A stretch of DNA of 60,216 nt from a virus. The stretch is from positions 1 to 60,216 of the IMG/VR virus record IMGVR_UViG_3300026077_000003; one strand, 5' to 3'. Below the pieces are notes generated by a model. That model was not told the origin of the DNA and ran no database searches. It saw nothing but the letters and a program-made list of their open reading frames with translations. Both the position numbers and the translations under genes were made by a program. Each line of letters starts with the position of its first letter. Position 1 is the first letter of the stretch. Positions 34,074-51,025 of this stretch are shown here, in pieces.

Positions 34074-37000
34074 ATGGCACTAACCCGTCTTAAAAATATC
34101 ATCACGTCGAGGACTGGTCGTATTATATACGTCAACCCCGACGATTTTGATGCATCGGATGCTTACGATAATAGAGGTAACTCAGCGTTACGTCCGTTTA
34201 AGACGTTGCAGCGTGCATTCCTAGAAGTTGCAAGATTTTCATACAGAGTTGGTTTAAGTAATGACGAATTTGACGCATTCAGTATATACTTGTATCCGTC
34301 AGATTATGTTATTGACAATAGACCTGGTGTAGCAGATTATAATGATGTACAACCATTTGATGCTAACACTAACTTTGATTTAACTTCTTCTAGTAATGTT
34401 CTTTATAAATTTAATGCAGCTGCTGGTGGTATCATTGCTCCTCGTGGTGTCTCTGTTGTTGGTTCGGACTTACGTCGAACCAAAATCATTCCAAAATACG
34501 TCCCTTATCCTACGGTTCAGGGTTCTCTCGGTATTACTTCTACTAACGAGCCTGCTACTGCTGCGATTTTTAAACTCACTGGTGGATGTTATTTCTGGCA
34601 GCAATCCTTTTTTGATGGAGACACTAATGGAGTCTATTACAGAGGCGACGATATAAGTACGATTGCACCTAACTTCTCACACCATAAGTTAACGTGTTTT
34701 GAGTTCGCTAATATTACTGACCTAGAACTATATTATCAGAAGATATCTAAAGCATACGCTACTATACCTGACTCATCAGGTGTTGTCGCACAAGACCAGT
34801 TACAGGTAAGGGTAGAAGAGAACAGAATCGTTGGTCCTATATCTGACGAATTCGCTATCTCACAGATCATAAGAAATGGACAAACCGCCACAGCGTTCAC
34901 AGTGGACGCACTTGGTAATCCGAAGAATCATGGATTCTCCGTGGGTGTCGCTGTTAATATATCTGGTGTTACTGGTCCTACTGAGCAGGATCAACTCCTC
35001 TATAATGGTTCGTTCTTGGTAACGTCTGCTCAAGGTAACCAGTTCACTTATCAAATGTCAACTGAACCGTCAGGTAATGCTATCGGTTCCAATATTCTTG
35101 TTAAGGTCGAAATTGATACAGTTGACTCAGCATCACCATATGTCTTTAACTGTTCTCTAAGATCAGTTTGGGGTATCAATGGTATGCACGCAGATGGTGC
35201 TGAAGCAACTGGATTTAAGTCCATGGTTGTTGCTCAGTTCACTGGTATCTCTCTGCAGAAAGATGACAGAGCATTCGTACTATACAACCAAAGTACTGGA
35301 GCATATGAACCCCAAGCTGCGGGATCTGGTGCTCATATTAATGGACTTGCCGAGTACCGAAAGGGTTGGAGGCATCGTCACATTAAAGCATCAAATGATG
35401 CGTTTATCCAAGTCGTCTCGGTGTTCGCTGTTGGTTTCGGTGATCACTTCTTCTCCGACTCAGGCGGTGACCTTTCTATCACCAACTCAAACTCAAACTT
35501 TGGTAACACTTCTCTCCGAAGTAAAGGATTTAAAGCAACTGCATTTACAAAAGATAAAGCAGGTCAGTTAACCCATGTTATACCACCTAAGTCACTTAGT
35601 GATGTAGATGAGATCTCAATTAACTGGGTAACTATTGATATTGCATCAACAAGAGCACAGGCAGATTCCACTAGGTTATACCTATATGGATATACCAGTC
35701 AGTTAGGTAGACCACCCTCAAAGATTCAGGGATATACTATTGGTGCAAGAAGAGATGACGTTAATACTCCAGACAGACTATATGTTGCATTGATTGCATC
35801 AGGTGCATCAGAACCTACTACTCACTATGCAGACGTTAACCCTGCTGGTCCTGAAGTTACAGGTACCAGAGCAGGTGATGAGCAAAGTCCTATTAAGTAT
35901 GACACTAACAGGGGACAGTGGTATATTCAGGTAGATAGTGCTGCTAATACAATCTATACAACACTACAAGCTAACAACTTATATCAGAACTTAGGATTTA
36001 CACCTACTACATTCATCAGAAGGGTACCCGACGCTCGTGACCTTAATGACAGAACATACAGATTTAGGTATATCTTAGATAAGGATGCGTTCCCTATACC
36101 AAGACCACCTATCACTGGTTTCGTTCTTCAGCCCAGATCATCAGAAACAAACTCACCATCATATAGTAAGACATATTACATCTATGATGTAGAAACATTC
36201 CAAGAGTTTATTCGTGGTGTACAGGATGGTATATATTATTTGACTCTACTATCAGCGTCAGTATCACCTGCAACATCAAACTTTGATGACTTCGCATTCT
36301 CACAGCAGACTGTGGACATCTATCCTGCATTTGACAGAGATAACCCAGTCGCTGACCCTGCACCTGCAGTTTCCATTGCTGATAATGAAGTGTTGGGTGT
36401 GGTTAAGACAACTGATGGTGCTACTCCAACACCTAATGAGAACAAACAGTTATCTATTACGAAGGAAACTACACAGTTTATACTGTTAGAGACAGAGAAT
36501 AACTTAGGATATAATACTACATCTAACGTACTGAATAGTATAGTTGTTACTGCACGTTTAGGTGATGAAGAAGAAAGAAAGATAGCACTGAAACTAAATC
36601 CAGACCAGTCGGTGTCACCTCTACAGGTTGAGTTACGAAGGTACTCAATTCTGAGAGCATCAGGTCACACGTTTGAGTATCTTGGATTTGGTCCAGGTAA
36701 CTACTCAACTGCATTCCCATCCACACAGGTTGAGGTGTTATCACCACAACAGGTGAGACTATCACAGTCACTTAAGGAAGCAGCAGGTGTGGCATACTAC
36801 TCTGGTGTTAACAGTGATGGTGAACTGTTCGTTGGTAACCAGGTTATTAACCCAGTTACAGGTCAGATCACTAACGAAGATATTGCTCAACTTAACGTGT
36901 TGGGTGAGGAGGACACGACCATTGAGACGTTCTCCGAATTGGTTCTTACTGATAAACTAACCGTAATTGGTGGTGCATCTAACCAGTTAGAATCAGTATT

Positions 37001-37646
37001 CTCTGGTCCTGTTACCTTCCAGAAGAAAGTAACATCATCAGATGAGATACAGTCACTTAAGTACACTTACTCTAATACAGATGGTACAGTTCTTAAACAG
37101 ACCTTCCTAGCAGAAGAACTGAATGGACTACCAGATCTACAGTCAGGGTTAGCTTTTAACAATGGTGACATTTGTTATAACATTGACTGGGCACCTGGTC
37201 AATCACTCGGATGGGTGTATGATACTGGTGTATGGTACAAGATTGGATTGAGTGATACTACACCTATTACATCTAACAGATACAGTGGTGTAACACATTA
37301 TGGTATTGGTATGTCACCTGACGCATCCAACAGGATGAAGATTGGTGGTAACACTTATATTTCTGGTGACTTAGATGTTACTGGTAAATATGGTTGTGCA
37401 GATAAATACTCTTTAGCAACTGGTATTGCAAATAGCAATAATGGTGTTACCTATTCTGGTAATGGTGCAACTCAGACGTTTAATATTTCGCCTGGACACA
37501 CTGCTTACTCACTTTTAGTATTTCTAAATGGTGTTGCTCAAGTTCCTGGTGTAGATTATACAGTCACAGGTAATGCTGTTGACTTTAGTATATCTTCTCC
37601 ACCTGCAACTGGTGATACGATTCAGATTCGTGAACTTGTTATCTAA
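34074..37646 (+). CDS. Very large virion protein with beta-helix-like N-terminus
   Basis: This is a 1190-residue protein. The N-terminus (RIIYVNPDDFDASDAYDN, ALRPFKTLQRAFLEVARFS) resembles the entry of right-handed parallel beta-helix proteins (PFKTLQxA). Asn/Gly-rich repeats follow in the middle. The C-terminal end (YSLLVFLNGVAQVPGVDYTV, PPATGDTIQIRELVI) is a small fibre-knob-like domain recurring in T4-like fibre proteins. It is a probable baseplate-periphery or long-fibre component. Confidence 0.7.
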   Translation: MALTRLKNIITSRTGRIIYVNPDDFDASDAYDNRGNSALRPFKTLQRAFLEVARFSYRVGLSNDEFDAFSIYLYPSDYVIDNRPGVADYNDVQPFDANTNFDLTSSSNVLYKFNAAAGGIIAPRGVSVVGSDLRRTKIIPKYVPYPTVQGSLGITSTNEPATAAIFKLTGGCYFWQQSFFDGDTNGVYYRGDDISTIAPNFSHHKLTCFEFANITDLELYYQKISKAYATIPDSSGVVAQDQLQVRVEENRIVGPISDEFAISQIIRNGQTATAFTVDALGNPKNHGFSVGVAVNISGVTGPTEQDQLLYNGSFLVTSAQGNQFTYQMSTEPSGNAIGSNILVKVEIDTVDSASPYVFNCSLRSVWGINGMHADGAEATGFKSMVVAQFTGISLQKDDRAFVLYNQSTGAYEPQAAGSGAHINGLAEYRKGWRHRHIKASNDAFIQVVSVFAVGFGDHFFSDSGGDLSITNSNSNFGNTSLRSKGFKATAFTKDKAGQLTHVIPPKSLSDVDEISINWVTIDIASTRAQADSTRLYLYGYTSQLGRPPSKIQGYTIGARRDDVNTPDRLYVALIASGASEPTTHYADVNPAGPEVTGTRAGDEQSPIKYDTNRGQWYIQVDSAANTIYTTLQANNLYQNLGFTPTTFIRRVPDARDLNDRTYRFRYILDKDAFPIPRPPITGFVLQPRSSETNSPSYSKTYYIYDVETFQEFIRGVQDGIYYLTLLSASVSPATSNFDDFAFSQQTVDIYPAFDRDNPVADPAPAVSIADNEVLGVVKTTDGATPTPNENKQLSITKETTQFILLETENNLGYNTTSNVLNSIVVTARLGDEEERKIALKLNPDQSVSPLQVELRRYSILRASGHTFEYLGFGPGNYSTAFPSTQVEVLSPQQVRLSQSLKEAAGVAYYSGVNSDGELFVGNQVINPVTGQITNEDIAQLNVLGEEDTTIETFSELVLTDKLTVIGGASNQLESVFSGPVTFQKKVTSSDEIQSLKYTYSNTDGTVLKQTFLAEELNGLPDLQSGLAFNNGDICYNIDWAPGQSLGWVYDTGVWYKIGLSDTTPITSNRYSGVTHYGIGMSPDASNRMKIGGNTYISGDLDVTGKYGCADKYSLATGIANSNNGVTYSGNGATQTFNISPGHTAYSLLVFLNGVAQVPGVDYTVTGNAVDFSISSPPATGDTIQIRELVI

Positions 37647-39786: not shown

Positions 39787-40530
39787 ATGGATTTTGAGAT
39801 TGAGGAATTCTTTCCCAAGTTTATTGGGAAGTATCCCTATGGTGGTGACCAACAGGTCATAAAAGATGTATGTGATCGTGTCCTAGAGGAAATTCCTAAA
39901 GGACATGAAGAGTGGAATGATAATGTTGCTGAAGAGCATCTACATCATTACTTTAATATATCTAATAGTAGTCTATTAAGATTTGATGATCGATTAAATG
40001 ATTTTGAGCAATTTCTTATAGATGCTTCTACTCATTTCTTCACAGAGATACTTGAGTATGATCTGAATGAATCAAATATGCTTATTACTGATTGTTGGAT
40101 GAACATGTGCGATAAAGAGCACACTTGGCAGATCAAACACAATCACAATAACTGTATGATAGTTGGTACATATTTTGTCGATTTTGATGAAAAAATACAT
40201 GCACCATTAGATTTTTATAGAAATACATACAAGGACGCTGTTCCTAGTCTGTCGCAAATGCGTCAACCACGCATAGCAAACGAAGGTAATAAATATACAA
40301 AGGAAGTTCATCAATCCTCACCCAAAGAGGGCACGTTATTCATTTGGAATGCTGAGATGCTACATGGATATGAAGCCATATATAATCTATGGAGAGGTAG
40401 AAGAACTATTAGTATGAATTTTTTGCCTGAAATTCTTGATAACGGTAAGTACGCTTTTAGGGTAGAACCGTTACAGCATATAAGTCCAACTCAGCTAAAT
40501 AGAAGAAAAGAACTAGATAATAACCAATGA
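39787..40530 (+). CDS. 2OG-Fe(II) oxygenase embedded in the fibre cluster
   Basis: This 247-residue protein has a TIGR02466-like core: a WQIKHNHNNCMIVGTYFVDF block (H118, H120), EGTLFIWNAEMLHGYE (H193) and RRTISMNF (R206). It is longer than its relatives, with a C-terminal extension after the core. It lies 3 nt after the lectin-like gene and overlaps the first glycine-rich adhesin by ATGA. It is therefore co-translated with receptor-binding proteins, which makes them candidate substrates by context only. Confidence 0.75.
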   Translation: MDFEIEEFFPKFIGKYPYGGDQQVIKDVCDRVLEEIPKGHEEWNDNVAEEHLHHYFNISNSSLLRFDDRLNDFEQFLIDASTHFFTEILEYDLNESNMLITDCWMNMCDKEHTWQIKHNHNNCMIVGTYFVDFDEKIHAPLDFYRNTYKDAVPSLSQMRQPRIANEGNKYTKEVHQSSPKEGTLFIWNAEMLHGYEAIYNLWRGRRTISMNFLPEILDNGKYAFRVEPLQHISPTQLNRRKELDNNQ

Positions 40531-41330
40531 CTCGTTTAAATGTCGCACAAGTTAAGGATCTATCCAACCAAGGCGGTATGTCGTTCTCTGGTGGTGCGAT
40601 TACTGCTAATGGCACGTTAACCGTGTCTAAGTTGGTTATCAACGGAACTATTAGTGGATCCTCAGGGTATATAATTCCCTCACAAAGTGGTCAAGCAGGT
40701 AGTTTCCTCTCGACTAATGGATCAACAATATCATGGACTGGCGTATCAGGTGGTGGTGGAGCACCAACAGGTATATCGGTCTATAACTCAAGTACTACTT
40801 GGAATAAACCAAGTGGTGTAAGACGTATATGGGTTAAATGTACTGCTGGTGGTGGAGGTGGTTCAGGTTACGGTGAATCTGGAGCTGCTGGTGGTCATAC
40901 AGAAACCTTCGTTGATGTAAGTAACATTAACTCTATCTCTGTATCAGTTGGAGGTGGAGGAAGTGGAACCAATTATTCAGGTCGTGCTGGTAATGGTGGA
41001 ACATCTTCTTTCGGTAACTACTGTTCATCAGGTGGTGGTCAAGGTGCAAATAGAAACCAACAGCATGATGGTGCTTTAGGTGGTAACCCCAATCAAGGTT
41101 CAGTTAGAATCTATGGTGGTTCATCTCAAGGACATAGAAACCCACCAGGTTTAGGTCATGGTGGTTGTTCATTCTGGGGTGGTGCATCACCAACAACCCA
41201 TAGAAGACAACAGTGGGCACAAAGATATCGTGGTCATGCTGCATACGGTGCAGGTGGTTCTTCAGGTAGAAACCCTGAAAGGGGTGGTGATGGTCGTCAG
41301 GGCATCATAGTTGTCTACGAATTTAACTGA
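40527..41330 (+). CDS. Glycine-rich tail-tip adhesin (gp38-like), copy 1
   Basis: This is a 267-residue protein. The N-terminal shaft part (about 1-70) ends in GSFLSTNGSTISWTGVSGGG. The tip begins with TTWNKPSGVRRIWVKCTAGG and continues as polyglycine loops (GGGGGSGYGE, SVSVGGGGSGTNYS, GGGQGANRNQQ, GLGHGGCSFWGG, AAYGAGGSSG). It ends GRQGIIVVYEFN. Such stacked poly-Gly loops are typical of T2/S16-type gp38 adhesins, where the loops between Gly motifs set host range. A near-copy follows downstream. Confidence 0.78.
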   Translation: MTRLNVAQVKDLSNQGGMSFSGGAITANGTLTVSKLVINGTISGSSGYIIPSQSGQAGSFLSTNGSTISWTGVSGGGGAPTGISVYNSSTTWNKPSGVRRIWVKCTAGGGGGSGYGESGAAGGHTETFVDVSNINSISVSVGGGGSGTNYSGRAGNGGTSSFGNYCSSGGGQGANRNQQHDGALGGNPNQGSVRIYGGSSQGHRNPPGLGHGGCSFWGGASPTTHRRQQWAQRYRGHAAYGAGGSSGRNPERGGDGRQGIIVVYEFN

Positions 41331-41338
41331 TATAAATA
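41331..41338 (+). promoter_or_regulatory. Late promoter box TATAAATA between adhesin copies
   Basis: This is an exact consensus, starting right after the stop codon of the first adhesin and 25 nt before the start of the second, which has an AAGGAG ribosome site (41344-41349). Confidence 0.75.
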
Positions 41339-41362: not shown

Positions 41363-42163
41363 ATGAGTACCCTCAAAGTATCGGCAATTAGAGACCTATC
41401 TGGTTCTGGTGGTTTAGACCTCAGTTCGGGATCAATCACAGTGAATGGTACTCTAACCGTATCCAACATCAATATTAATGGAACCATTGGAGGTTCATCA
41501 TCACAGGTTATACCATCAGTATCGGGTCAGTCTGGTAAGTTCCTTACTACCAACGGATCTTCGATGTCATGGGGTACAATCACAGCAGGTGGTGGTCCAA
41601 AATCAATCAGTGTATATAACTCAAGTTCCACATGGAATAAACCCAGTGGAATTAAGCGTATATGGGTTAAATGTACTGGTGCTGGTGGCGGTGGATCAGG
41701 TTATGGTGAATCTGGATCCGCAGGTGCACATACTGAAAGTATTGTTAATGTAGAAAACATTAACTCCATCTCTGTCTCCGTTGGTGGAGGAGGTGGTGGT
41801 ACTAACTATTCTGGTTACTCTGGAAATGGTGGTACTTCATCCTTTGGTAACTATTGTTCATCAGGTGGTGGACAAGGTGCTAACAGGAACCAACAGCATG
41901 AAGGATCATTGGGTGGTAACCCTAACCAAGGTTCTGTTAGAATCTATGGTGGTTCAGGTCAGGGACATAGGAACCCACCAGGTCTAGGACATGGTGGATC
42001 TAGTTTCTGGGGAGGTTCATCTCCTACTACTCATAGGAACCAACAGTGGGCTCAGCGTTACAGAAACCATGCTGCATACGGTGCAGGTGGATCCTCTGGT
42101 AAGAACGGTGAGAGAGGTGGCGATGGTCGCCAGGGTATTATTGTAGTTTACGAATTCGATTAA
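41363..42163 (+). CDS. Glycine-rich tail-tip adhesin (gp38-like), copy 2
   Basis: This 266-residue protein is collinear with the preceding adhesin along its whole length. The TWNKPSGIKRIWVKCTGAGG entry, the poly-Gly loops and the GRQGIIVVYEFD end are all shared. Differences cluster in the N-terminal shaft and at a few loop positions (for example GGCSFWGGASPTTHRRQ versus GGSSFWGGSSPTTHRNQ). It has its own late promoter. It could be an alternative receptor-binding tip or a second fibre's tip. Confidence 0.78.
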   Translation: MSTLKVSAIRDLSGSGGLDLSSGSITVNGTLTVSNININGTIGGSSSQVIPSVSGQSGKFLTTNGSSMSWGTITAGGGPKSISVYNSSSTWNKPSGIKRIWVKCTGAGGGGSGYGESGSAGAHTESIVNVENINSISVSVGGGGGGTNYSGYSGNGGTSSFGNYCSSGGGQGANRNQQHEGSLGGNPNQGSVRIYGGSGQGHRNPPGLGHGGSSFWGGSSPTTHRNQQWAQRYRNHAAYGAGGSSGKNGERGGDGRQGIIVVYEFD

Positions 42164-42164
42164 A

Positions 42165-42833
42165 ATGAAAAGTTGTTTAGTTAGATCAGACGGTTTTATC
42201 ACCGATATCTGTAACAAAGGCGAAGAGTTCGAAGTCTACACTGGTCCAGGATCTTCACTTAAATGGGTTGATGCACCTGACGAAGTAGATATCGAATGGA
42301 GATTAATGTTGGGGGAATGGATCCCTAACTTTGTCTACACTGACCCTCTTAATGCAAAAGTTATTGCCTATGGTCCTGAAGGATCTCAGTTAGGTAAAAT
42401 CTGGAAAGATATAGATGCAGGTCTTTTTGGCGAGAATGCAAAGAAAGGACAGTTCTATGCTCACATTAAAAATGTAAAGGACACTGCAAAACCTATTACA
42501 TGGAAAGAGGTAGAAATACCTGATCCAAATGATCCTAGTAAAACTACTACGGAAAGAGTATCAGACGAACCAGATCAACCATTCCCACATGATGACAACA
42601 TGCCAGCATGGAATACTCCAGAGGAAATGGACATAGGTGTTCGTAGAGAATTTAAACTCGCTGAGTTTGCTGATCGTGGTGATACAGCTCCTGCTGCAGA
42701 ACAAGTATCTGCACAACCTATAACATCAGCACCAGTGACAGAAGCAGTGGATACTAATCCAGATCTAGGAACTCCACCAACATCTCACGCACCTGATTCT
42801 GATGATCGTATAACTACTGATAACCCTCAGTAA
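42165..42833 (+). CDS. Fibre-cluster protein, unknown
   Basis: This is a 222-residue protein. The N-terminal part (residues 1-130) is compact (TGPGSSLKWVDAPDEVDIEW, RLMLGEWIPNFVY). The last 80 residues are Pro/Asp/Thr-rich and probably disordered. It starts 1 nt after the second adhesin and is the last gene before the halogenases. Position suggests a fibre-assembly or attachment accessory, but no family is recognised. Confidence 0.6.
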   Translation: MKSCLVRSDGFITDICNKGEEFEVYTGPGSSLKWVDAPDEVDIEWRLMLGEWIPNFVYTDPLNAKVIAYGPEGSQLGKIWKDIDAGLFGENAKKGQFYAHIKNVKDTAKPITWKEVEIPDPNDPSKTTTERVSDEPDQPFPHDDNMPAWNTPEEMDIGVRREFKLAEFADRGDTAPAAEQVSAQPITSAPVTEAVDTNPDLGTPPTSHAPDSDDRITTDNPQ

Positions 42834-42848
42834 ACTTATTACTTTATT

Positions 42849-44435
42849 ATGAAAATTCGTAATGTCCTCATTGTTGGGGGTGGAACTGCTGGTTGGATGA
42901 CTGCTGCAGCACTCCTAAAATTATGCCCACACATTAAAACCTCGTTGATCGAGAGTCCCGATGTACCCACCAGTGGTGTCGGTGAATCTACTCTCGGACA
43001 GATCAACGAGTTTTTTAAGTTATTAGATCTTAAGGATGAACAGTGGATGAAAGACACTGGTGCTACCTATAAGGTAAACATACGATTTAATGACTTCTAT
43101 CAACCAGGTGAGACATGGGACTATCCATTTGGTAGTTCTGAGAGAGTATTAAAGACATTAACACATGGGTGGATGTCATGGTTTGTATTAAATCAAACGA
43201 GACCAGAGAAGTATCACAGGGGCACATTTGCTGAGTGTTTTAATAGTGTAGGTGCGTTAGCTAAGTATAATAAGTTAAGTGATGATGATAAGTGGTGGAA
43301 CCCATGGGTAGACAGTGCATATCATTTCGATGCAATTAAGTTTGGTCATTGGTTAAAGGATAACTACTGCATACCTAGAGGATTAGAATATCATACGGGC
43401 AATGTGGGCAGATTTGCCCAAGATGCCCGTGGATATATCACTAAAGCATATACTGATGATGGTAGAGAGTTTGAGGCAGATTTATATGTAGATTGTACAG
43501 GGTTTAAGTCTCTATTATTAGAGCAGACATGTGGATCTAAATTTATTAGCTACCACCATAACGATGGAGGTGCACTACTGAATGACACTGCTGTAGCGTG
43601 TCATATGCCCCACTCAGACCCATCTAAAGAGATAACCAACAGTACTAACTGTACTGCTATAGACAATGGGTGGGTATGGGATGTACCCTTGTGGGATAGA
43701 TCAGGTGTAGGGTATGTGTACTCAAAAGATTTTGCAGATAAACCAGAGGAAGAACTATATAATTATTTGCTACGGACAAGAGGGAAGGAGAGAGCAGACA
43801 AAGCATCCATGAGAACTATTCCATTTAGAAATGGAAAGCATGAGAAGTCATGGGTTAAGAATGTATGTGCTATTGGTCTCTCTAATTGTTTCGTAGAACC
43901 ATTAGAAGCAACAGGTCTAGTAACCACACATGAACAGATCACTAGACTATGTACAACACTATCAAGTAGAGAAGGATATACTAATAGAGCAGAAATAGAT
44001 ATGCTGAATCTAGTTGCAGACCTAGAGATAGATGGTTTTATGACATTTATATCTGCTCACTATGCTTTCAGTAGAAGAGAAGGTAAGTATTGGCAGACAG
44101 TATCAGATGATATATCATATCCCTTTGATGAAGGTGGATTGGATAACCTATTTGTAAAATACTCAGCAGAGAAGCATGTATCATATGAGTGGATCGGGGA
44201 TCCAGCACACAATGACGGTGTGAGGTACATAGCAGCAGGAATGGGATTTAATCCTATTTGTGAGCATACCTTATTGCTTAAACGTCTGATGAATGACCTG
44301 ACTGAGGACTATGATGAATGGTACCTCAACGATTGTGATGACACATTTGACGATTGGAGGAAGACCATGTATGATTGGACAAAGAACATGGATTCGTCAT
44401 ACGAATACACAAGAAAGAAGATCTATGAAGGTTAA
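42849..44435 (+). CDS. Flavin-dependent tryptophan-halogenase-family enzyme, copy 1
   Basis: This is a 528-residue FAD-dependent halogenase. The FAD-binding GGGTAGWMTAAAL lies at residues 10-22. The catalytic-lysine region GATYKVNIRF has K75, matching Lys79 of PrnA. A WxWx[IV]P motif is at 275-280 (WVWDVP), and the PLEATG segment contains the expected catalytic Glu. The family oxidises chloride, bromide or iodide to a hypohalous acid that a lysine relays to the substrate. Cyanophage relatives such as VirX1 from Syn10 have been reported to iodinate many substrates. It would need a flavin reductase, which is not seen here. It overlaps copy 2 by 11 nt. Confidence 0.9.
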   Translation: MKIRNVLIVGGGTAGWMTAAALLKLCPHIKTSLIESPDVPTSGVGESTLGQINEFFKLLDLKDEQWMKDTGATYKVNIRFNDFYQPGETWDYPFGSSERVLKTLTHGWMSWFVLNQTRPEKYHRGTFAECFNSVGALAKYNKLSDDDKWWNPWVDSAYHFDAIKFGHWLKDNYCIPRGLEYHTGNVGRFAQDARGYITKAYTDDGREFEADLYVDCTGFKSLLLEQTCGSKFISYHHNDGGALLNDTAVACHMPHSDPSKEITNSTNCTAIDNGWVWDVPLWDRSGVGYVYSKDFADKPEEELYNYLLRTRGKERADKASMRTIPFRNGKHEKSWVKNVCAIGLSNCFVEPLEATGLVTTHEQITRLCTTLSSREGYTNRAEIDMLNLVADLEIDGFMTFISAHYAFSRREGKYWQTVSDDISYPFDEGGLDNLFVKYSAEKHVSYEWIGDPAHNDGVRYIAAGMGFNPICEHTLLLKRLMNDLTEDYDEWYLNDCDDTFDDWRKTMYDWTKNMDSSYEYTRKKIYEG

Positions 44436-46008
44436 GGACGTAGTTATCGTTGGAGGTGGCAGTGCTGGTTGGATGACTGCTGCTGCATTGGATGTCTTGT
44501 GTCCTCATGTCAACGTGACTCTTATTGAGGATCCAAATCAAGGTGTCATAGGTGTTGGTGAGTCCACACTACAGCAGATCCGTAAGTTCATAGGACTGCT
44601 AGGACTTAAAGACTCTGACTGGATGAAGGACATAGGTGCAACATATAAGACTGCTATTAGTTTTAATGACTTCTGGAAGAAGGGTGAGAGTTGGATGTAT
44701 CCATTTGGGTTAGTTAATATGATGGAGAGTAAAGTTCCATGGATGGCATGGTTCGTACTCAATGCAACCAAACCAGAGAAATATACTAATGATACATTTG
44801 CTACTACATTTAATCCTGTAGCACACTTCACCAAATATAATAAACTAACATATGATACTACCTACTGGACACCATGGACTGATACTGCATACCATATAGA
44901 TGCTATTAAGTTTGGACAGTGGTTAAAGAATAATGTATGTAAGAGAGTAAAACATATTAAGGGTGTAGTTAGTGGTTGGCAACAGAAACCAAATGGTGAT
45001 ATCGAGTCAATAATATATGGAGGTAAGAGATTATCTGCTGATCTATTTGTAGATTGTAGTGGGTTTAAGTCATTACTATTGGGTGATGCAATGGGTGTGG
45101 AGTTCGAGTCATTCCTTTATGGTGAAGGTGGTTGTCTATTAAATGACAAAGCAATATCTATTTCAGTACCACATGAGGATCCATCAAGAGAGGTTACTAA
45201 CACAACTAACTGCACAGCATTAAATAATGGATGGGTGTGGGATGTACCATTGTGGGAACGTGGTGGACTAGGGTATGTGTACTCCAGTAAATTTATTACA
45301 GAGGATCAGGCACAAGTAGAGTTGTATGATTATTTGGTACGCTCTAGGGGCAAGGAGAGGGCAGACGCAGTGACATATAAAACCATACCAATTAAGACTG
45401 GTAGGCATAAGAAATCATTTGTTGGTAACGTTATTGGTATAGGTTTATCTAATAATTTCGTAGAACCATTAGAGTCTACTGGGATCCTAGTTCTACATGA
45501 ACAGGTGATTAGATTGTGTAATGCACTGTCAGGACGCAATGGGTTCATACCTAAGGTAGAGAAGGAAATGATTAATCAGATATCAAACTATGAAATTGAG
45601 GGTCAGAAGAATTTCGTTGCTGCTCACTATGCTTTCTCTGAACGTGAGGAACCATACTGGCAGACTGCATCAGATGTCATAGACTATGACTTTAGCGGTG
45701 GTGCTGACAACTATTTCCTACGTCATGCGTCACATAAGTACATAAACTTTGACTTCGTATCACCCATGGGTAGTATAGAGTATAATGATGGACCTAGATA
45801 TTGTGCAGCAGGTATGGGTTTTAACCCTATAAATAAAGTGACACTACCTTTATCAAGGATGTGTAATGAAATCTTACCTGAGGAGGATGATGAAGCATTA
45901 TCCAAGGCAGAGGATATCATTGACAAGTGGCATGAAGACATGCTATCATATTGTGAGACTTTACCCTCGTCTTACGAGTTCTTAAAACAAACCATTTATA
46001 AGGAATAG
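44425..46008 (+). CDS. Flavin-dependent tryptophan-halogenase-family enzyme, copy 2
   Basis: This is 527 residues from the ATG at 44425, chosen because it places VVIVGGGSAGWMTAAAL at the N-terminus as in copy 1. A longer frame inside copy 1 is rejected. K75 in GATYKTAISF, WVWDVP at 270-275 and PLESTG are all conserved. Unlike copy 1 it keeps the Ser of PLESTG. It is a clear paralog with the same length and order of motifs. Substrate and halide are unknown. Confidence 0.9.
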   Translation: MKVKDVVIVGGGSAGWMTAAALDVLCPHVNVTLIEDPNQGVIGVGESTLQQIRKFIGLLGLKDSDWMKDIGATYKTAISFNDFWKKGESWMYPFGLVNMMESKVPWMAWFVLNATKPEKYTNDTFATTFNPVAHFTKYNKLTYDTTYWTPWTDTAYHIDAIKFGQWLKNNVCKRVKHIKGVVSGWQQKPNGDIESIIYGGKRLSADLFVDCSGFKSLLLGDAMGVEFESFLYGEGGCLLNDKAISISVPHEDPSREVTNTTNCTALNNGWVWDVPLWERGGLGYVYSSKFITEDQAQVELYDYLVRSRGKERADAVTYKTIPIKTGRHKKSFVGNVIGIGLSNNFVEPLESTGILVLHEQVIRLCNALSGRNGFIPKVEKEMINQISNYEIEGQKNFVAAHYAFSEREEPYWQTASDVIDYDFSGGADNYFLRHASHKYINFDFVSPMGSIEYNDGPRYCAAGMGFNPINKVTLPLSRMCNEILPEEDDEALSKAEDIIDKWHEDMLSYCETLPSSYEFLKQTIYKE

Positions 46009-46010
46009 AA

Positions 46011-46565
46011 ATGACAGAAGACTTAAAGAAGGTGGAAAACCTTGAGGATGCACATGTAGAGGGAATCAGTCCTGCTGGTGCACCAACCAATCTCGATCCA
46101 AATAATATCAATCAAGACCTAGAGGACTTAGGATTGCCTGAGTTGCCACCAGAGGTGATAGAAGAGGTGCAGTCTGCATATGAAGCAGTACAGTCACTTG
46201 ATGATCTATGGAAGAATCTTATCTATCAGCATAGAGAGAAGTTTGATCATTATCAAGAAATGCAAGAAGGATTATCTTCTATGTCATTTGATAGACCTGA
46301 GACTAGAGTTAACTTTACTGAACTCAATGAAATTAGAGATGAGTTGGTTAAGATAGAAGGTGGTATTGAGACTCTTAACTTGTATCGTAAGTATGTGCTT
46401 AAAGAAGAAGAGCAACCATGGTTAGAAGTAGATATGGAGAAGCAGAGATCAAAGATCAAAGTAGCAACTTCATCTAAGTTCTCAGATCCTAAGAAGAAGA
46501 AAGACTATAGCGAATTAGCAGACTGGCAGGGTGGACAGAATCCAGAACTGAATAAACTGAAGTAA
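46011..46565 (+). CDS. Helical protein next to halogenases, unknown
   Basis: This is a 184-residue protein. The N-terminal 60 residues are Pro/Glu/Asp-rich and likely disordered. The middle (about 60-135) is a helical coiled-coil-like region, and the C-terminus is basic then polar (DPKKKKDYSELADWQGG). It starts 2 nt after copy 2 of the halogenase and overlaps the next oxygenase start (TAATG). No family is recognised. Confidence 0.6.
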   Translation: MTEDLKKVENLEDAHVEGISPAGAPTNLDPNNINQDLEDLGLPELPPEVIEEVQSAYEAVQSLDDLWKNLIYQHREKFDHYQEMQEGLSSMSFDRPETRVNFTELNEIRDELVKIEGGIETLNLYRKYVLKEEEQPWLEVDMEKQRSKIKVATSSKFSDPKKKKDYSELADWQGGQNPELNKLK

Positions 46566-47281
46566 TGGATCTAAATCTTGATTATTTGTTTCCCACTCCT
46601 ATATGGTGGGTTGATCTAGATCATATCAATATCAAAGAGATGCAAGACATTTGCTATGGTATTGCAGAGAACATGGAGACAAAAGAAAGGAGCAATAGGG
46701 GGTTGATGAATTATCAGTCCCCTGACTTTTTTGGTGAGAAATTATGTGAGGAGGAGGATGATGAGTTTGGTAAATTAGCAAGAAGTATTAAAGACTTTGG
46801 TAATAAAGCATTTGATTCATTTGAGTCATGTGTCACCACACTAGAGTTTGCTAATATATGGATTAATATTAATAACAAGGGTGGATATAATGAAGTCCAC
46901 ACACATCCAGGATCATTGATGTCTGGTGCATTTTATGTTAAAGTACCAGAAGAAGGAGACTGTGGTAGTATAACATTTCATAAAAATGCTATGGAAGGGT
47001 ATGTAACTCATTCTCTGGGATTAGCAGAGGATTTGAGTAAAGCGGAAGCACCACATACTCATGCAACCATGTCTTATCCACCAAAAGAAGGTCGATTAGT
47101 TTTATTTCCATCATGGATATCTCATGGTGTGAGAGAGAACGAGACTGAAGAAGATCGTATTAGTATCTCATTTAATTTGATTCCAAATAGGAATAAGAGA
47201 GATATGTCTGAAATTATTAAATCTCATGCAAACACAACTATTCTCCATACCCGTGGAGACGGGAACGATAGTTCCAACTGA
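46565..47281 (+). CDS. 2OG-Fe(II) oxygenase (TIGR02466 type)
   Basis: This is a 238-residue protein. It begins with LFPTPIWWVDLD, the standard family opening. The core has YNEVHTHPGSLMSGAFYVKV (H112, H114), then EGRLVLFPSWISHGVR (H187) and DRISISFN (R198). Family proteins are predicted hydroxylases of unknown substrate. It overlaps the next oxygenase by 56 nt, an unusually long overlap. Confidence 0.88.
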   Translation: MDLNLDYLFPTPIWWVDLDHINIKEMQDICYGIAENMETKERSNRGLMNYQSPDFFGEKLCEEEDDEFGKLARSIKDFGNKAFDSFESCVTTLEFANIWININNKGGYNEVHTHPGSLMSGAFYVKVPEEGDCGSITFHKNAMEGYVTHSLGLAEDLSKAEAPHTHATMSYPPKEGRLVLFPSWISHGVRENETEEDRISISFNLIPNRNKRDMSEIIKSHANTTILHTRGDGNDSSN

Positions 47282-47861
47282 TGAAGAATTAAGTGCTACT
47301 CTAGAATTATTAGATGAAGCATGGTCTGTTGCTGAAAAAGGTACATGGGCATTAGAATCAGGTAAGTCTACTGGTAACTTAGAACAGGGTACAGAACTAT
47401 ATCAATCAACTACATTTGATTGGTTAACCATGCCTATGTTAAATGCAGTGCATGATTACTGGGATCTTGTTCTAGGGTATCGTAAAGACTTCCACATGTA
47501 TGTTGATGGTATGTGGGCAAATTTACATACCGAAGGAGATACTACAGGAGAACATAACCATAGTGCAGGTAGAGGTAAGTCACATGTATCATGTGTATAT
47601 TATCTTAAGAAGAATCCTGACAATGGTCATTTATTATTTCGTGATCCATTAGAAATGGTATGGGGTATGTCTCCTATGGATAGGACTTTCATTAACCTTA
47701 AGAAACAACATATACATAAAGCAAAGACATATGATTATGTCATATTTCCATCATGGTTATACCATGAGACACAACCCAATGGTAAAGACGAACGCATAGC
47801 AATTAGTATGAACTTCAGTGGATATCCACTAGACCCTAGTGAAGGAGATTGGTCAAGATAA
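47226..47861 (+). CDS. 2OG-Fe(II) oxygenase (TIGR02466 type)
   Basis: This 211-residue protein has MWANLHTEGDTTGEHNHSAG (H110, H112 as likely ligands), a SHVSCVYYLKKNPDNGHLLF strand pair, YVIFPSWLYHETQP (H180) and DERIAISMNFSG (R190). The start codon lies inside the preceding gene and gives the usual FSIPVETGT-like opening. It is coupled downstream by TAATG. Confidence 0.86.
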   Translation: MQTQLFSIPVETGTIVPTDEELSATLELLDEAWSVAEKGTWALESGKSTGNLEQGTELYQSTTFDWLTMPMLNAVHDYWDLVLGYRKDFHMYVDGMWANLHTEGDTTGEHNHSAGRGKSHVSCVYYLKKNPDNGHLLFRDPLEMVWGMSPMDRTFINLKKQHIHKAKTYDYVIFPSWLYHETQPNGKDERIAISMNFSGYPLDPSEGDWSR

Positions 47862-48565
47862 TGGATGTATTAAACCTACCATTTTTAAACCCCAGTGTAT
47901 TCCAGACAAATGATAAACCAAGAGTTTGGGAGGGAGTATTAAAGAATCCTGAGCAATATTGCACATGGGATGATGTAACCAAGTGCATGAATAACCCATG
48001 GCATTTTAGGTGCTGCTTACTTAATACTGATGGACGTAGACTAGATCTCAATGAGAAGTTTGAGGTGTGGTATGAGGATAAGTTTCCATTAAAGGAGGAA
48101 CTATTCCATGGTATTAATGAAGGACTGACATTTACTATAGAACAGTATGGTCATTATAATAAGGCAGTAGATAATTTATTAGAGAATATAGAGACAAGGT
48201 ACGATTGTAATTGTGATGCACATATATTTGGTAACGCTTTACCTAATGGTATATCATTTGGTGCACACTGGGATCTACCACCTAATTTTATATGTCAGTT
48301 AGAAGGAGAGACACACTGGCAAGTATATAAAGAGAGGTGTAGTGCATTGGTTAAGATGGATGATAATCCATACAGTCCTGATAATAATAATCACCAACTC
48401 ACAGTTGATTTAGATGTGGTATTAAAACCAGGTGATGTTATGTACTTCCCTGCAAGAACATATCATAAACCATTTCCAGGTGGTAAAAGATTAAGTATGA
48501 GCATACCATGTTCATACCCTCGTGATGTACTAAGTGATAGGAGACAATATGAAATCCGTTTTTGA
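47861..48565 (+). CDS. JmjC/cupin-4-like hydroxylase, copy 1
   Basis: This is 234 residues from the ATG overlapping the previous stop; an upstream TTG in frame is less likely. The cupin core has GAHWDLPPNFICQLEGETHW with the HxD pair H136/D138. The distal KPGDVMYFPARTYHKPFPGG has H202 and is followed by RLSMSIP. The layout (HWD, then LxPGDVxYxP, then H) matches ribosomal-oxygenase-type Cupin_4 proteins, which hydroxylate protein side chains. The substrate here is unknown. It is paired with the 2OG oxygenase that follows. Confidence 0.8.
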   Translation: MDVLNLPFLNPSVFQTNDKPRVWEGVLKNPEQYCTWDDVTKCMNNPWHFRCCLLNTDGRRLDLNEKFEVWYEDKFPLKEELFHGINEGLTFTIEQYGHYNKAVDNLLENIETRYDCNCDAHIFGNALPNGISFGAHWDLPPNFICQLEGETHWQVYKERCSALVKMDDNPYSPDNNNHQLTVDLDVVLKPGDVMYFPARTYHKPFPGGKRLSMSIPCSYPRDVLSDRRQYEIRF

Positions 48566-49076
48566 TACACTACCAGAACCTATAGTTAATCAACTAGAAG
48601 GTCTTACTAAGAACCCACGGTTCCCATGGTATTGGTTAGATGATACTACATACATGACATCAGACCATGATGGTTTAAAGGCACATTCATTCTCTCATCA
48701 ATTAATAGATGAGTATGAACCTGTTAGTGAACAGACAGGACTATTTGAGAGTGCATTGCATTGCATTGCAGATAAATGTGATGCAAGAGTATCAGACATA
48801 TATCGTGTACGATTAGGATTGTGCTATCCTGATGGTATGCTACATCATGCACCACATACAGATTATGATTTCGATCATACTACTGCATTATATTATGTTA
48901 ACGAAGCAGATGGTGACACATTCTTCTTTGATAATGATAATAATATTATTCATAGAGAGACACCACTCAAAGGTAAGATGATAGTATTTGATGGTAAAGA
49001 TATACATGCTTCATCATCACCTACACAGGGTATTAGGATTGCAATGAATGTCAATTTTAAACTACGAATTTCTTGA
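48549..49076 (+). CDS. 2OG-Fe(II) oxygenase, P4H-like, copy 1
   Basis: This is 175 residues from the ATG at 48549, which has an AGGAG ribosome site 5 nt upstream. It shows the classical HxD...H...R set: H103-T-D105 in HAPHTDYDFDHTTALYYVNE, GKMIVFDGKDIHASSSP (H153) and GIRIAMNVNF (R163). It overlaps the second JmjC/cupin gene by 29 nt. It resembles the gene at 49945 in plan and sequence (FPWYW/FPWFM, YYVNExDG). Confidence 0.87.
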   Translation: MKSVFDTLPEPIVNQLEGLTKNPRFPWYWLDDTTYMTSDHDGLKAHSFSHQLIDEYEPVSEQTGLFESALHCIADKCDARVSDIYRVRLGLCYPDGMLHHAPHTDYDFDHTTALYYVNEADGDTFFFDNDNNIIHRETPLKGKMIVFDGKDIHASSSPTQGIRIAMNVNFKLRIS

Positions 49077-49749
49077 CCCTGAGGTCTACAAATATAATGA
49101 TGAACCTAGAGTATGGCACAATGCTGTAGGGCAGATCGTTACATGGGAGGATGCAGAAAATGCCCTAAATGCCCCATGGAATTACATCACTACAGTATTA
49201 GGTGATGATGGTAAGAGACTAGATTTAGAGACAGTAGAGGAACCATGGTTCTTTAAAGGTATATACAAGAAGAGAGATCTATTTCAGTACGCAAAGGATG
49301 GATGGACAGTAAATATATCACAGTATGGTCATGGTAATGATAGGGTAGAAGAACTATTAACTGAGTTAGAGAATAGATTTGATGGGTGTGCTGACTGTGG
49401 TATCTTTATGAACTTGGGTACGAGACCAGAAGCGAGATCCTTTCATCCACATTGGGATCATGGTCCAACATATATTATGCAGATGGATGGTGAGACTAGA
49501 TGGGTAGTGTATGAGAATAGAGTATCAGCATTGATACCTAGTACAGAGGAGAATCCTTATGTACCAAGTCAGGAAGAACTGACAATACAACTAGACACTG
49601 TACTTACAGCAGGAGATGTACTATACTTACCCCAGAGGAAATTCCACAAAGCATATCCATCTAAAAAGAGACTCTCATTATCAGTACCAATTTGGTGTCC
49701 AAAGAGGTGTGAGTGCAGTGATCGGAATTCGTATCGTTTAAATCTCTAA
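49048..49749 (+). CDS. JmjC/cupin-4-like hydroxylase, copy 2
   Basis: This 233-residue paralog of the 47861 gene shares the opening (FLDPEVYKYNDEPRVWHNAV versus FLNPSVFQTNDKPRVWEGVL). It also shares FHPHWDHGPTYIMQMDGETR (H135, D137), TAGDVLYLPQRKFHKAYPSK (H200) and RLSLSVP. Both also share the ISQYGHGND/IEQYGHYNK element. It overlaps the upstream oxygenase gene. The duplication of the cupin plus 2OG pair is discussed under findings. Confidence 0.8.
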   Translation: MSILNYEFLDPEVYKYNDEPRVWHNAVGQIVTWEDAENALNAPWNYITTVLGDDGKRLDLETVEEPWFFKGIYKKRDLFQYAKDGWTVNISQYGHGNDRVEELLTELENRFDGCADCGIFMNLGTRPEARSFHPHWDHGPTYIMQMDGETRWVVYENRVSALIPSTEENPYVPSQEELTIQLDTVLTAGDVLYLPQRKFHKAYPSKKRLSLSVPIWCPKRCECSDRNSYRLNL

Positions 49750-49778: not shown

Positions 49779-49961
49779 ATGACATCAATAGCAGTAGAGT
49801 GTTTAACTCTACAGCAGAAGCATAAAGAAACATTAACTAAGGCACTTTTCCTATTACAGAAAGAGTGGTATAATAAACTGGGTCAACTACCAGATGAACA
49901 ACGTGAATTGATTGATGAAATTGCGTCCGCCTTACATCTCAAGCATGAGAATAGAGGATAA
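49779..49961 (+). CDS. Small helical protein, unknown
   Basis: This 60-residue all-helical protein contains a KHKETLTKALFLLQKEWYNK helix. A GGGGG ribosome site precedes it, and a CTAAATAC box at 49746 lies upstream. It overlaps the next oxygenase by 17 nt. No family is recognised. Confidence 0.55.
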   Translation: MTSIAVECLTLQQKHKETLTKALFLLQKEWYNKLGQLPDEQRELIDEIASALHLKHENRG

Positions 49962-50436
49962 CTTCCTCGCTCAAGATAAATGGAAAGAACTCCATGATTA
50001 TATGACATCATGGGAGTTTCCATGGTTTATGCAAACAACATTAACTCATGGTAATGATGACTTAGAAGCGTTTGGATTTAACCATTGGTTAACTGCTGAG
50101 GAACACCCATTATTTGCTCACCTTGTCACCGAGATGCAATCTGCCCTATCTGCCCGTAATGTGTTACGGGTACGAGCAGACATGACATTACTTAATCCTA
50201 ATAAGTATAGACATGGATGGCATACTGACAGTAAGGAGGAGCATACAGTCTGCATATATTATGTAAATGAAAGTGATGGTAATACATTACTTAAGGATCC
50301 AGTTGAGGGTCATGGTTATATGCAAGTAGAACCAAAAGCGAACAGACTATTGGTATTTGATGGCAGTATAGAACATACTGGTCACTCACCAAGTGAACAC
50401 AAACAGAGGATTTTAATCAATGCAAACTTCTGTTAA
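49945..50436 (+). CDS. 2OG-Fe(II) oxygenase, P4H-like, copy 2
   Basis: This is 163 residues from the ATG at 49945, chosen to match the N-terminal length of its paralog at 48549; an ATG at 49915 is also in frame. The core has H93-T-D95 in GWHTDSKEEHTVCIYYVNES, NRLLVFDGSIEHTGHSP (H144) and QRILINANF (R155). It is a probable tandem-duplication product with the 48549 gene. Confidence 0.85.
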   Translation: MRIEDNFLAQDKWKELHDYMTSWEFPWFMQTTLTHGNDDLEAFGFNHWLTAEEHPLFAHLVTEMQSALSARNVLRVRADMTLLNPNKYRHGWHTDSKEEHTVCIYYVNESDGNTLLKDPVEGHGYMQVEPKANRLLVFDGSIEHTGHSPSEHKQRILINANFC

Positions 50437-51025
50437 ACCTGAGATTCTCCCACTATTCTCATCACCAGTATATGTGTGTGAGGATAAGACTATGCCTAAT
50501 GTCATTAGTGCTATTGAGGGATGGGAGTATCATAAAGCACCCCAACAAGGTAGTCAGACATTCGAAATGAATGTTTTAACTAAACTACCTGCACTTAGGG
50601 AGTGGTTAAACTTTCATGTAGAAGAATATGTATGGAATGTGTTAGGAATTGATAGAAGATGCCATGAAATAGTATATACTTGCTCATGGATTAACAGACA
50701 CAAATTCCAAGAGAAAACACATGAACATTCCCACCGTAACAGCATGTATAGTGGGATTTGTTATTTACAAACACATGAAAGATGTGGTGATCTGGTCTTT
50801 AGGGATCAATCATATAATATGGTATCACCACGCATAGTTCATGGTAACCTATACAATAGTAAGCAATGGACAATACAACCTAAGGATGGCATGGTGGTGA
50901 TGTTCCCTAGTTCTATGGTGCATCTAGTCACACCTAACCAGATAATGCGAGAGAGATACTCACTAGCATTTAATATCTTTCTTAAGGGTGATTTTGGTAA
51001 CCCTACTTCATTCTTAAAATTATGA
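50420..51025 (+). CDS. 2OG-Fe(II) oxygenase (TIGR02466 type)
   Basis: This is a 201-residue protein. The opening is LPLFSSPVYVCEDK. The core has KTHEHSHRNSMYSGICYLQT (H101/H103/H105), DGMVVMFPSSMVHLVTP (H168) and RERYSLAFN (R179). It overlaps both neighbours. The substrate is unknown. Confidence 0.86.
   Translation: MQTSVKPEILPLFSSPVYVCEDKTMPNVISAIEGWEYHKAPQQGSQTFEMNVLTKLPALREWLNFHVEEYVWNVLGIDRRCHEIVYTCSWINRHKFQEKTHEHSHRNSMYSGICYLQTHERCGDLVFRDQSYNMVSPRIVHGNLYNSKQWTIQPKDGMVVMFPSSMVHLVTPNQIMRERYSLAFNIFLKGDFGNPTSFLKL

Follow-up and report, generated by a model that had tools for sequence, protein, structure and literature searches.

The stretch of viral DNA analysed here (IMG/VR record IMGVR_UViG_3300026077_000003, positions 1 to 60,216; this 60,216-nucleotide stretch is hereafter termed the window) carries two overlapping genes for VirX1-type flavin-dependent halogenases inside a tail-fibre module. 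Judged by these genes, its closest annotated relative is the T4-like Prochlorococcus cyanophage P-RSM6, and the window belongs to a P-RSM6-like cyanomyovirus, a marine virus of photosynthetic bacteria. We consider a functional tie between the halogenases and the tail module likely. Our leading interpretation, put forward tentatively, is that the genes encode two catalytically competent members of the VirX1 subfamily that modify tail or host-contact parts specified by a P-RSM6-like tail-fibre module. On the natural substrate of viral halogenases the literature, as far as the accessible texts go, ventures antibiotics or host metabolism as guesses; our genomic evidence speaks for the tail-fibre module, a link that we regard as the useful new point.

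The tandem halogenase pair

42849..44435, plus strand: copy 1 (c1), VirX1-type flavin-dependent halogenase of 528 amino acids with PLEATG and residues K75, E353 and A354 (Pfam, PHROG and VirX1 matches)
44425..46008, plus strand: copy 2 (c2), VirX1-type flavin-dependent halogenase of 527 amino acids with PLESTG and residues K75, E350 and S351 (Pfam, PHROG and VirX1 matches)

The start of c2 is the ATG at 44425, the ATG at 44311 given in the open reading frame (ORF) list being situated upstream of the conserved start, and the two genes overlap head to tail by 11 bp between the stop of c1 and the start of c2. Both products match PF04820 above the Pfam cut-off (E-values of 9.4e-95 for c1 and 3.7e-94 for c2), are covered almost over their full length by PHROG 2928 (residues 5-520 and 4-519, respectively) and match VirX1 (6qgm) well past chance, with E-values of about 1e-106 and 6e-109. 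They are 51.7% identical to each other over 522 columns. An earlier sequence-only reading of this DNA had proposed tandem paralogous flavin-dependent halogenases, and these two full-length genes bear it out: the identity and location of the pair are solid, the family is a known one, and we hold it as almost certain that both proteins have the halogenase fold and belong to this family.

The flavin adenine dinucleotide (FAD) motif, of the form GxGxxG, reads GGGTAGW in c1 and GGGSAGW in c2, and WVWDVP is present in both with V in place of the I of WxWxIP; the GxGxxG dinucleotide motif and WxWxIP are given as motifs of flavin-dependent halogenases in PMC8407142. GVGE46 is also retained in both copies. 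The catalytic residues, K75 in both (PrnA 79) and E353 of c1 or E350 of c2 (PrnA 346), are the same in all 15 rows aligned. The sequence-only reading had listed GGG(T/S)AGW, Lys75 and WVWDVP as common to both proteins and PLEATG versus PLESTG as their difference, all of which is visible in the sequences and their alignment: PLEATG corresponds to c1 residues 351-356 and PLESTG to c2 residues 348-353, the differing residue being Ala354 in c1 versus Ser351 in c2, adjoining the retained catalytic Glu. Both predicted halogenases are very likely active.

AlphaFold models, built from shallow alignments (19 rows for c1, 18 rows for c2) and read at the backbone level without FAD, give a predicted halogenase fold for both copies, with a mean predicted local distance difference test score of 68.6 for c1 and 77.4 for c2. 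The best match of the c2 model is VirX1 (Z 40.1, root-mean-square deviation (rmsd) 2.4, 497 aligned), while that of the c1 model is SttH (Z 42.5, rmsd 3.9 over 417), VirX1 being matched at Z 38.9 and rmsd 3.6 with 436 aligned. Low confidence affects the active-site loops at 352-355 and 76-93 in c1 and at 350-354 in c2. Alignments of c1 with VirX1 run to the C-terminus, those with most Trp halogenases stop at about residue 420, and a Trp-halogenase-like C-terminal region was not recognised in the sequence matches of c1. A low-confidence alignment of c2 with RebH places a gap opposite the part of RebH that precedes the NNS stretch, a part that we take to be the Trp-binding C-terminal segment. 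VirX1 itself is described as being without the helical lid of Thal (PMC7948982).

Linkage to the tail-fibre module

The pair sits between tail-fibre genes and a helicase gene, in the company of genes for Gly-rich tail-fibre proteins (termed G) and for a protein of PHROG 1787 (termed Y). In viral halogenase arrays having 3.5 kb or more of upstream sequence (n=68), we sought G and Y within 4.5 kb by profiles that were built from halogenase-bearing isolates and are thus biased to such relatives: both genes were found in 41/68 arrays, one alone in 0/68 and neither in 27/68. Upstream of bacterial halogenase arrays the profile search found G or Y in 0 of 69. By tblastn, G was detected in 19 phage records, all of which (19/19) also hold a VirX1-type halogenase, it being understood that five of these records are S-RIM44, that several are RefSeq copies of one genome and that low-complexity filtering may hide distant G; for comparison, a neighbouring tail-locus gene was present in 283 records and a virion gene in 296.

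Two records of S-RIM44, out of nine, were compared directly. KX349294 carries three G genes, Y, a halogenase pair and four recognised 2-oxoglutarate (2OG) oxygenase genes, whereas KX349295 has one 2OG gene and lacks G, Y and the pair. The flanks of this block are about 95% identical, the shared tail genes inside it only 65-70% (loci L201 and L202). A tail-fibre block is therefore exchanged within one phage species, halogenase pair included, and because the exchanged block carries them, such halogenases appear tied to tail type and not to host metabolism. The literature accessible to our search, some of it in partial text, yielded no published link between halogenases and tail fibres, nor between bacterial halogenases and SapC or TonB.

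The other genes of the module are as follows.

34074..37646, plus strand: tail fibre protein (PHROG 529), at the head of the module
39787..40530, plus strand: 2OG-Fe(II) oxygenase (PF13759; Pfam and PHROG), upstream of G1
40527..41330, plus strand: G1, Gly-rich tail-fibre protein and paralog of G2 (PHROG 863, Pfam Gly_rich_2)
41363..42163, plus strand: G2, Gly-rich tail-fibre protein (PHROG 863, Pfam Gly_rich_2)
42165..42833, plus strand: Y, protein of 222 amino acids and unknown function (PHROG 1787), immediately preceding c1
46011..46565, plus strand: 184-amino-acid acidic protein of unknown function, found directly after the halogenase gene or genes whether c2 is absent or not
46565..47281, plus strand: 2OG-Fe(II) oxygenase (PF13759; Pfam and PHROG)
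47226..47861, plus strand: 2OG-Fe(II) oxygenase (PF13759; Pfam and PHROG)
47849..48565, plus strand: JmjC/cupin-type oxygenase (PF08007; Pfam), start codon uncertain
48534..49076, plus strand: 2OG-Fe(II) oxygenase (PF13640), labelled 'DNA endonuclease V' in PHROGs, start codon uncertain
49048..49749, plus strand: JmjC/cupin-type oxygenase (PF08007; Pfam)
49912..50436, plus strand: 2OG-Fe(II) oxygenase (PF13640; Pfam and PHROG), start codon uncertain
50420..51025, plus strand: 2OG-Fe(II) oxygenase (PF13759; Pfam and PHROG)

Y and the Gly-rich tail genes occur together in each of the 41 viral arrays holding either, and our guess is that it might be a tail-fibre chaperone. The label 'DNA endonuclease V' (PHROG 274, RefSeq) is attached to the window proteins at 48534-49076 and 49912-50436 and to P-RSM6 CPXG_00175 and CPXG_00178; it looks wrong for these proteins, those of the window matching Pfam 2OG-FeII_Oxy_3. 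The late-promoter motif TATAAATA occurs at 41331, between G1 and G2, and was given no weight since the window holds six occurrences against 6.4 expected.

As to the role of the pair, a component of the tail or of a receptor as putative substrate seems to us more probable than drug-like metabolism; that a phage tail protein in particular is the substrate is a possibility we raise with reserve. The two proteins would be translated from the overlapping genes inside the tail-fibre module, and each would bind FADH2 from a host reductase and form the flavin hydroperoxide. By analogy with the family, chloride or bromide would then be oxidised to hypohalous acid, which would be handed to Lys75 so that, Glu353 or Glu350 serving as base, an aromatic ring would be halogenated electrophilically. 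The genomic context suggests as substrate a large exposed aromatic residue (Tyr, Trp or His in a polypeptide) of the adjoining tail-tip proteins, the same tail parts perhaps being further modified by the neighbouring 2OG and JmjC enzymes. Copy 1 would perform the core reaction and copy 2 would contribute a further specificity or a further subunit.

The FADH2 would have to come from the host, because four flavin reductase families (PF01613, PF00175, PF00881 and PF03358) were each found in 0 of 12 records, comprising the 60-kb window, which may be a fragment, and 11 complete cyanophage records; positive controls gave hits in 13, 10, 14 and 13 of 14 genomes. The remarks of the sequence-only reading that no flavin reductase is visible and that a host enzyme would have to provide FADH2 are in keeping with this result.

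Several observations weigh against a role in tail modification. Of the 68 viral arrays, 27 have neither G nor Y. At eight loci without the pair (seven control isolates and KX349295), G was present in one (S-RIM2) and Y in two (short in S-RIM2, weak in S-RIM14), so that S-RIM2 possesses G and a short Y with no halogenase in the stretch examined. The 2OG genes occur at all eight of these loci (7/7 control isolates and KX349295), with one to six genes each, and are for this reason not halogenase-specific. The relatives in S-B64 and MbCM6 are located elsewhere in the genome. Conserved aromatics of G (Tyr, Phe and His) were considered as marks of the substrate and rejected: they do not point to halogenation because the same positions are conserved in G of S-RIM2. 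Finally, the available text of PMC9964418 describes 14 virion proteins of S-CREM1 and names no halogenase, which lends the proposed role no support, although it fits an enzyme. Upstream of its module, S-RIM14 bears a short halogenase of a different kind.

The halogenases might also be passengers without tail-related role, the tail-fibre locus being an insertion hot spot. Gene content between tail fibre and helicase does vary among the seven control isolates, and copy 2 comes and goes; however, G and Y behave as all-or-none, with both in 41/68 arrays, and gene order is conserved over several genera, and we regard such a passive presence as improbable.

Auxiliary metabolism, in which tryptophan, indole or another small molecule would be halogenated during infection to yield a compound for protection or signalling, agrees with published suggestions: antibiotic protection was guessed at in PMC2984593 and PMC9964418, a halogenated metabolite or capsule decoration was suggested for a different cyanophage cluster in PMC7824862, and VirX1 is reported to take many small aromatics in vitro (PMC8407142). 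Nevertheless, we think this explanation unlikely. Pfam and PHROG scans recognised no further biosynthetic genes in the module, some 115 kb separate the annotated carbamoyltransferase from the halogenases on the linear P-RSM6 record, the C-terminal region appears VirX1-like and not Trp-halogenase-like, and related pairs are exchanged along with tail genes.

Alternatively, the enzymes could change the host surface by modifying the receptor or envelope protein bound by this tail type, thereby blocking superinfection or re-adsorption to debris. The halogenases would then travel with the adhesin since both must match the receptor, and the same evidence of co-exchange and co-occurrence (S-RIM44, the arrays with G and Y, the 19 records with G) would apply. 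Bacterial tandem relatives argue in the same direction: at seven such loci (L124, L156, L170, L172, L192, L194 and L198) a TonB-type outer-membrane receptor was the large upstream ORF in 6/6 scanned, and among further ORFs scanned SapC was found in 3/3 and Cupin_8 in 1/1, loci and ORFs having been hand-picked because of their Ser/Ala pairs. Against this explanation, a putatively cytoplasmic flavin enzyme cannot reach finished surface structures, and we judge it rather unlikely. The TonB/SapC/Cupin_8 neighbourhood of these bacterial genes is a surface-protein setting resembling that of the phage genes.

Divergence of the two copies

In a tree based on an alignment of 33 phage sequences, the 14 PLEATG rows of the subfamily form one clade (99/98) and the five copy-2 rows another (100/100), the two being joined (100/100). 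Given this single clade of PLEATG rows, one fixation of Ala, preceding the split of the relatives of P-RSM6, S-SZBM1 and S-WAM1, is the most likely course. Copy 2 is present at 5 of the 14 copy-1 loci and absent from 9; at two loci without it (L010 and L014), a copy 1 about 90% identical to c1 of the window is directly followed by the next gene. Copy 1 is the core copy, which is always kept. The possibility that single-copy genes are c1/c2 hybrids was rejected, as their sliding identity is nearer c1 throughout and c2-like only at the last few residues.

Both copies are under purifying selection, the pairwise ratio of nonsynonymous to synonymous substitution rates (dN/dS) among close relatives being 0.05-0.26 within copy 1 and 0.10-0.29 within copy 2, with saturation at greater distances. 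Across the 19 rows, 187 columns are invariant, and at 46 positions of the alignment the 14 rows of the copy-1 clade are fixed for one state and the five rows of copy 2 for another. These positions include a gap of two residues in copy 2 after YPFG, a stretch that presumably lines the substrate side in Trp halogenases. Division of labour, as the sequence-only reading had proposed, is plausible in view of the selection on both copies and of these clade-specific positions, and the two copies may act on different substrates or sites.

The same reading had alternatively supposed one regulatory copy. Overlapping genes and the trimer reported for VirX1 (PMC8407142) would permit hetero-oligomers that combine a catalytic copy with a partner of regulatory or structural function; however, both copies retain K, E, GxGxxG and WVWDVP, both have low dN/dS, and c1 stands alone in 9/14 rows, which makes such an arrangement quite improbable.

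Nor does the Ser/Ala difference designate a damaged or regulatory copy. The Ser beside the catalytic Glu, missing in c1 and present in c2, is not family-defining: Ala is fixed across the always-kept copy-1 clade (14/14 rows, 9 of these single-copy), and PLEA is found in 3/15 isolate, 27/133 viral-contig and 16/113 bacterial sequences (about 14-20%), with a scan pattern that allowed Ser or Ala and so leaves their ratio unbiased, other letters being perhaps under-counted. Across a 190-sequence tree, this letter changed at least seven times. Ala was found at this position in 0 of 11 distinct solved chain sequences aligned. The sequence-only reading had invoked the tie of this Ser to FAD/substrate communication in PrnA, an argument which we find weak: in AbeH, as reported in PMC11840605, the FAD contact of this Ser is made by the backbone and the chloride contacts by the backbone amides of the next two residues, so that loss of the Ser side chain need not matter. 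Since Ala is common in relatives and has repeatedly arisen, and since the contacts are made via the backbone, we conclude from these comparisons that the difference is a tolerated natural variant and no mark of inactivity. It should not serve to call a copy inactive.

Ser/Ala discordance was also considered as a signature of tandem pairs and discarded, 18/39 non-redundant arrays being mixed, which is about the expectation from independent draws at the Ala frequency (array counts left out hits scoring <100, nested hits and near-copies at 90%). Tandem copies carry Ala more often (22/81) than single copies do (13/109), with a Fisher p of 0.0085 overall, 0.011 for bacteria and 0.34 for viruses, but phylogenetically independent pairs gave no more than a trend in the same sense (2.1 vs 0.8 of 6); these counts, like the tree of 190 sequences, also left out single copies <2 kb from a locus end, letters other than Ser or Ala and fragments <330 amino acids.

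Overlapping pairs and closest known systems

Among non-redundant arrays, 22 of 25 viral junctions were scorable, of which 19 overlap at all and 10 by exactly 11 bp, three of the latter being of the c1/c2 type. The 11-bp overlap also exists in P-RSM6 and, for other pairs, in Syn10 and S-RIM44. In Syn10, CPUG_00131 is preceded, with an 11-bp overlap, by a halogenase of another clade carrying PLESNG (L033, 6488-9593). From its length and match, CPUG_00131 is probably VirX1, which would thus be the second gene of an overlapping pair, and because its partner belongs to another clade, overlapping pairs probably arose at least twice. According to the published text available, VirX1 was characterised alone, without its tandem partner.

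Two viral triple arrays (L073 and L115) consist of three overlapping halogenase genes with PLEATN, PLESTG and PLEANG. Bacteria account for 16/39 non-redundant arrays; three of the bacterial arrays (L135, L147 and L196) have three to four halogenases, one copy reading PLNGDD, PLNGSD or PLEWTN, and the two PLNG copies, without the catalytic Glu, may be inactive partners.

A broader and more doubtful proposal is that VirX1-type halogenases of T4-like cyanophages generally act as overlapping-gene pairs, possibly as mixed oligomers, which would halogenate aromatics of Gly-rich tail-tip proteins alongside 2OG/JmjC hydroxylases. If true, protein halogenation would be part of virion maturation, VirX1 alone would have no known natural substrate for that reason, and these genes would have been misfiled as auxiliary metabolic genes.

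Compared with known systems, c1 and c2 share PF04820, the fold and the catalytic Lys and Glu with the free tryptophan halogenases PrnA, RebH, Thal and PyrH, from which they appear to differ in the substrate-side C-terminal region, unrecognised in c1 and gapped in c2 against RebH. The closest solved structure by sequence is VirX1, about 40% identical to c1 and c2 and matched to the C-terminus; its source is Cyanophage Syn10 (PMC8407142), and its iodination was later attributed to free hypoiodous acid (PMC11021962). The Syn10 pair, VirX1 with PLESTG and its PLESNG partner, is not orthologous to c1/c2, since that partner is of another clade. S-SZBM1 and S-WAM1 have a single halogenase of the copy-1 clade with PLEATG and the same neighbours, without copy 2. 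The closest counterpart is the pair CPXG_00184 and CPXG_00183 of P-RSM6 (NC_020855), annotated simply as tryptophan halogenase, with the same tandem order, motifs and neighbours; these proteins are 89% and 83% identical to c1 and c2 and differ from them by sequence divergence only. Because P-RSM6 already carries it, the pair as such is not new.

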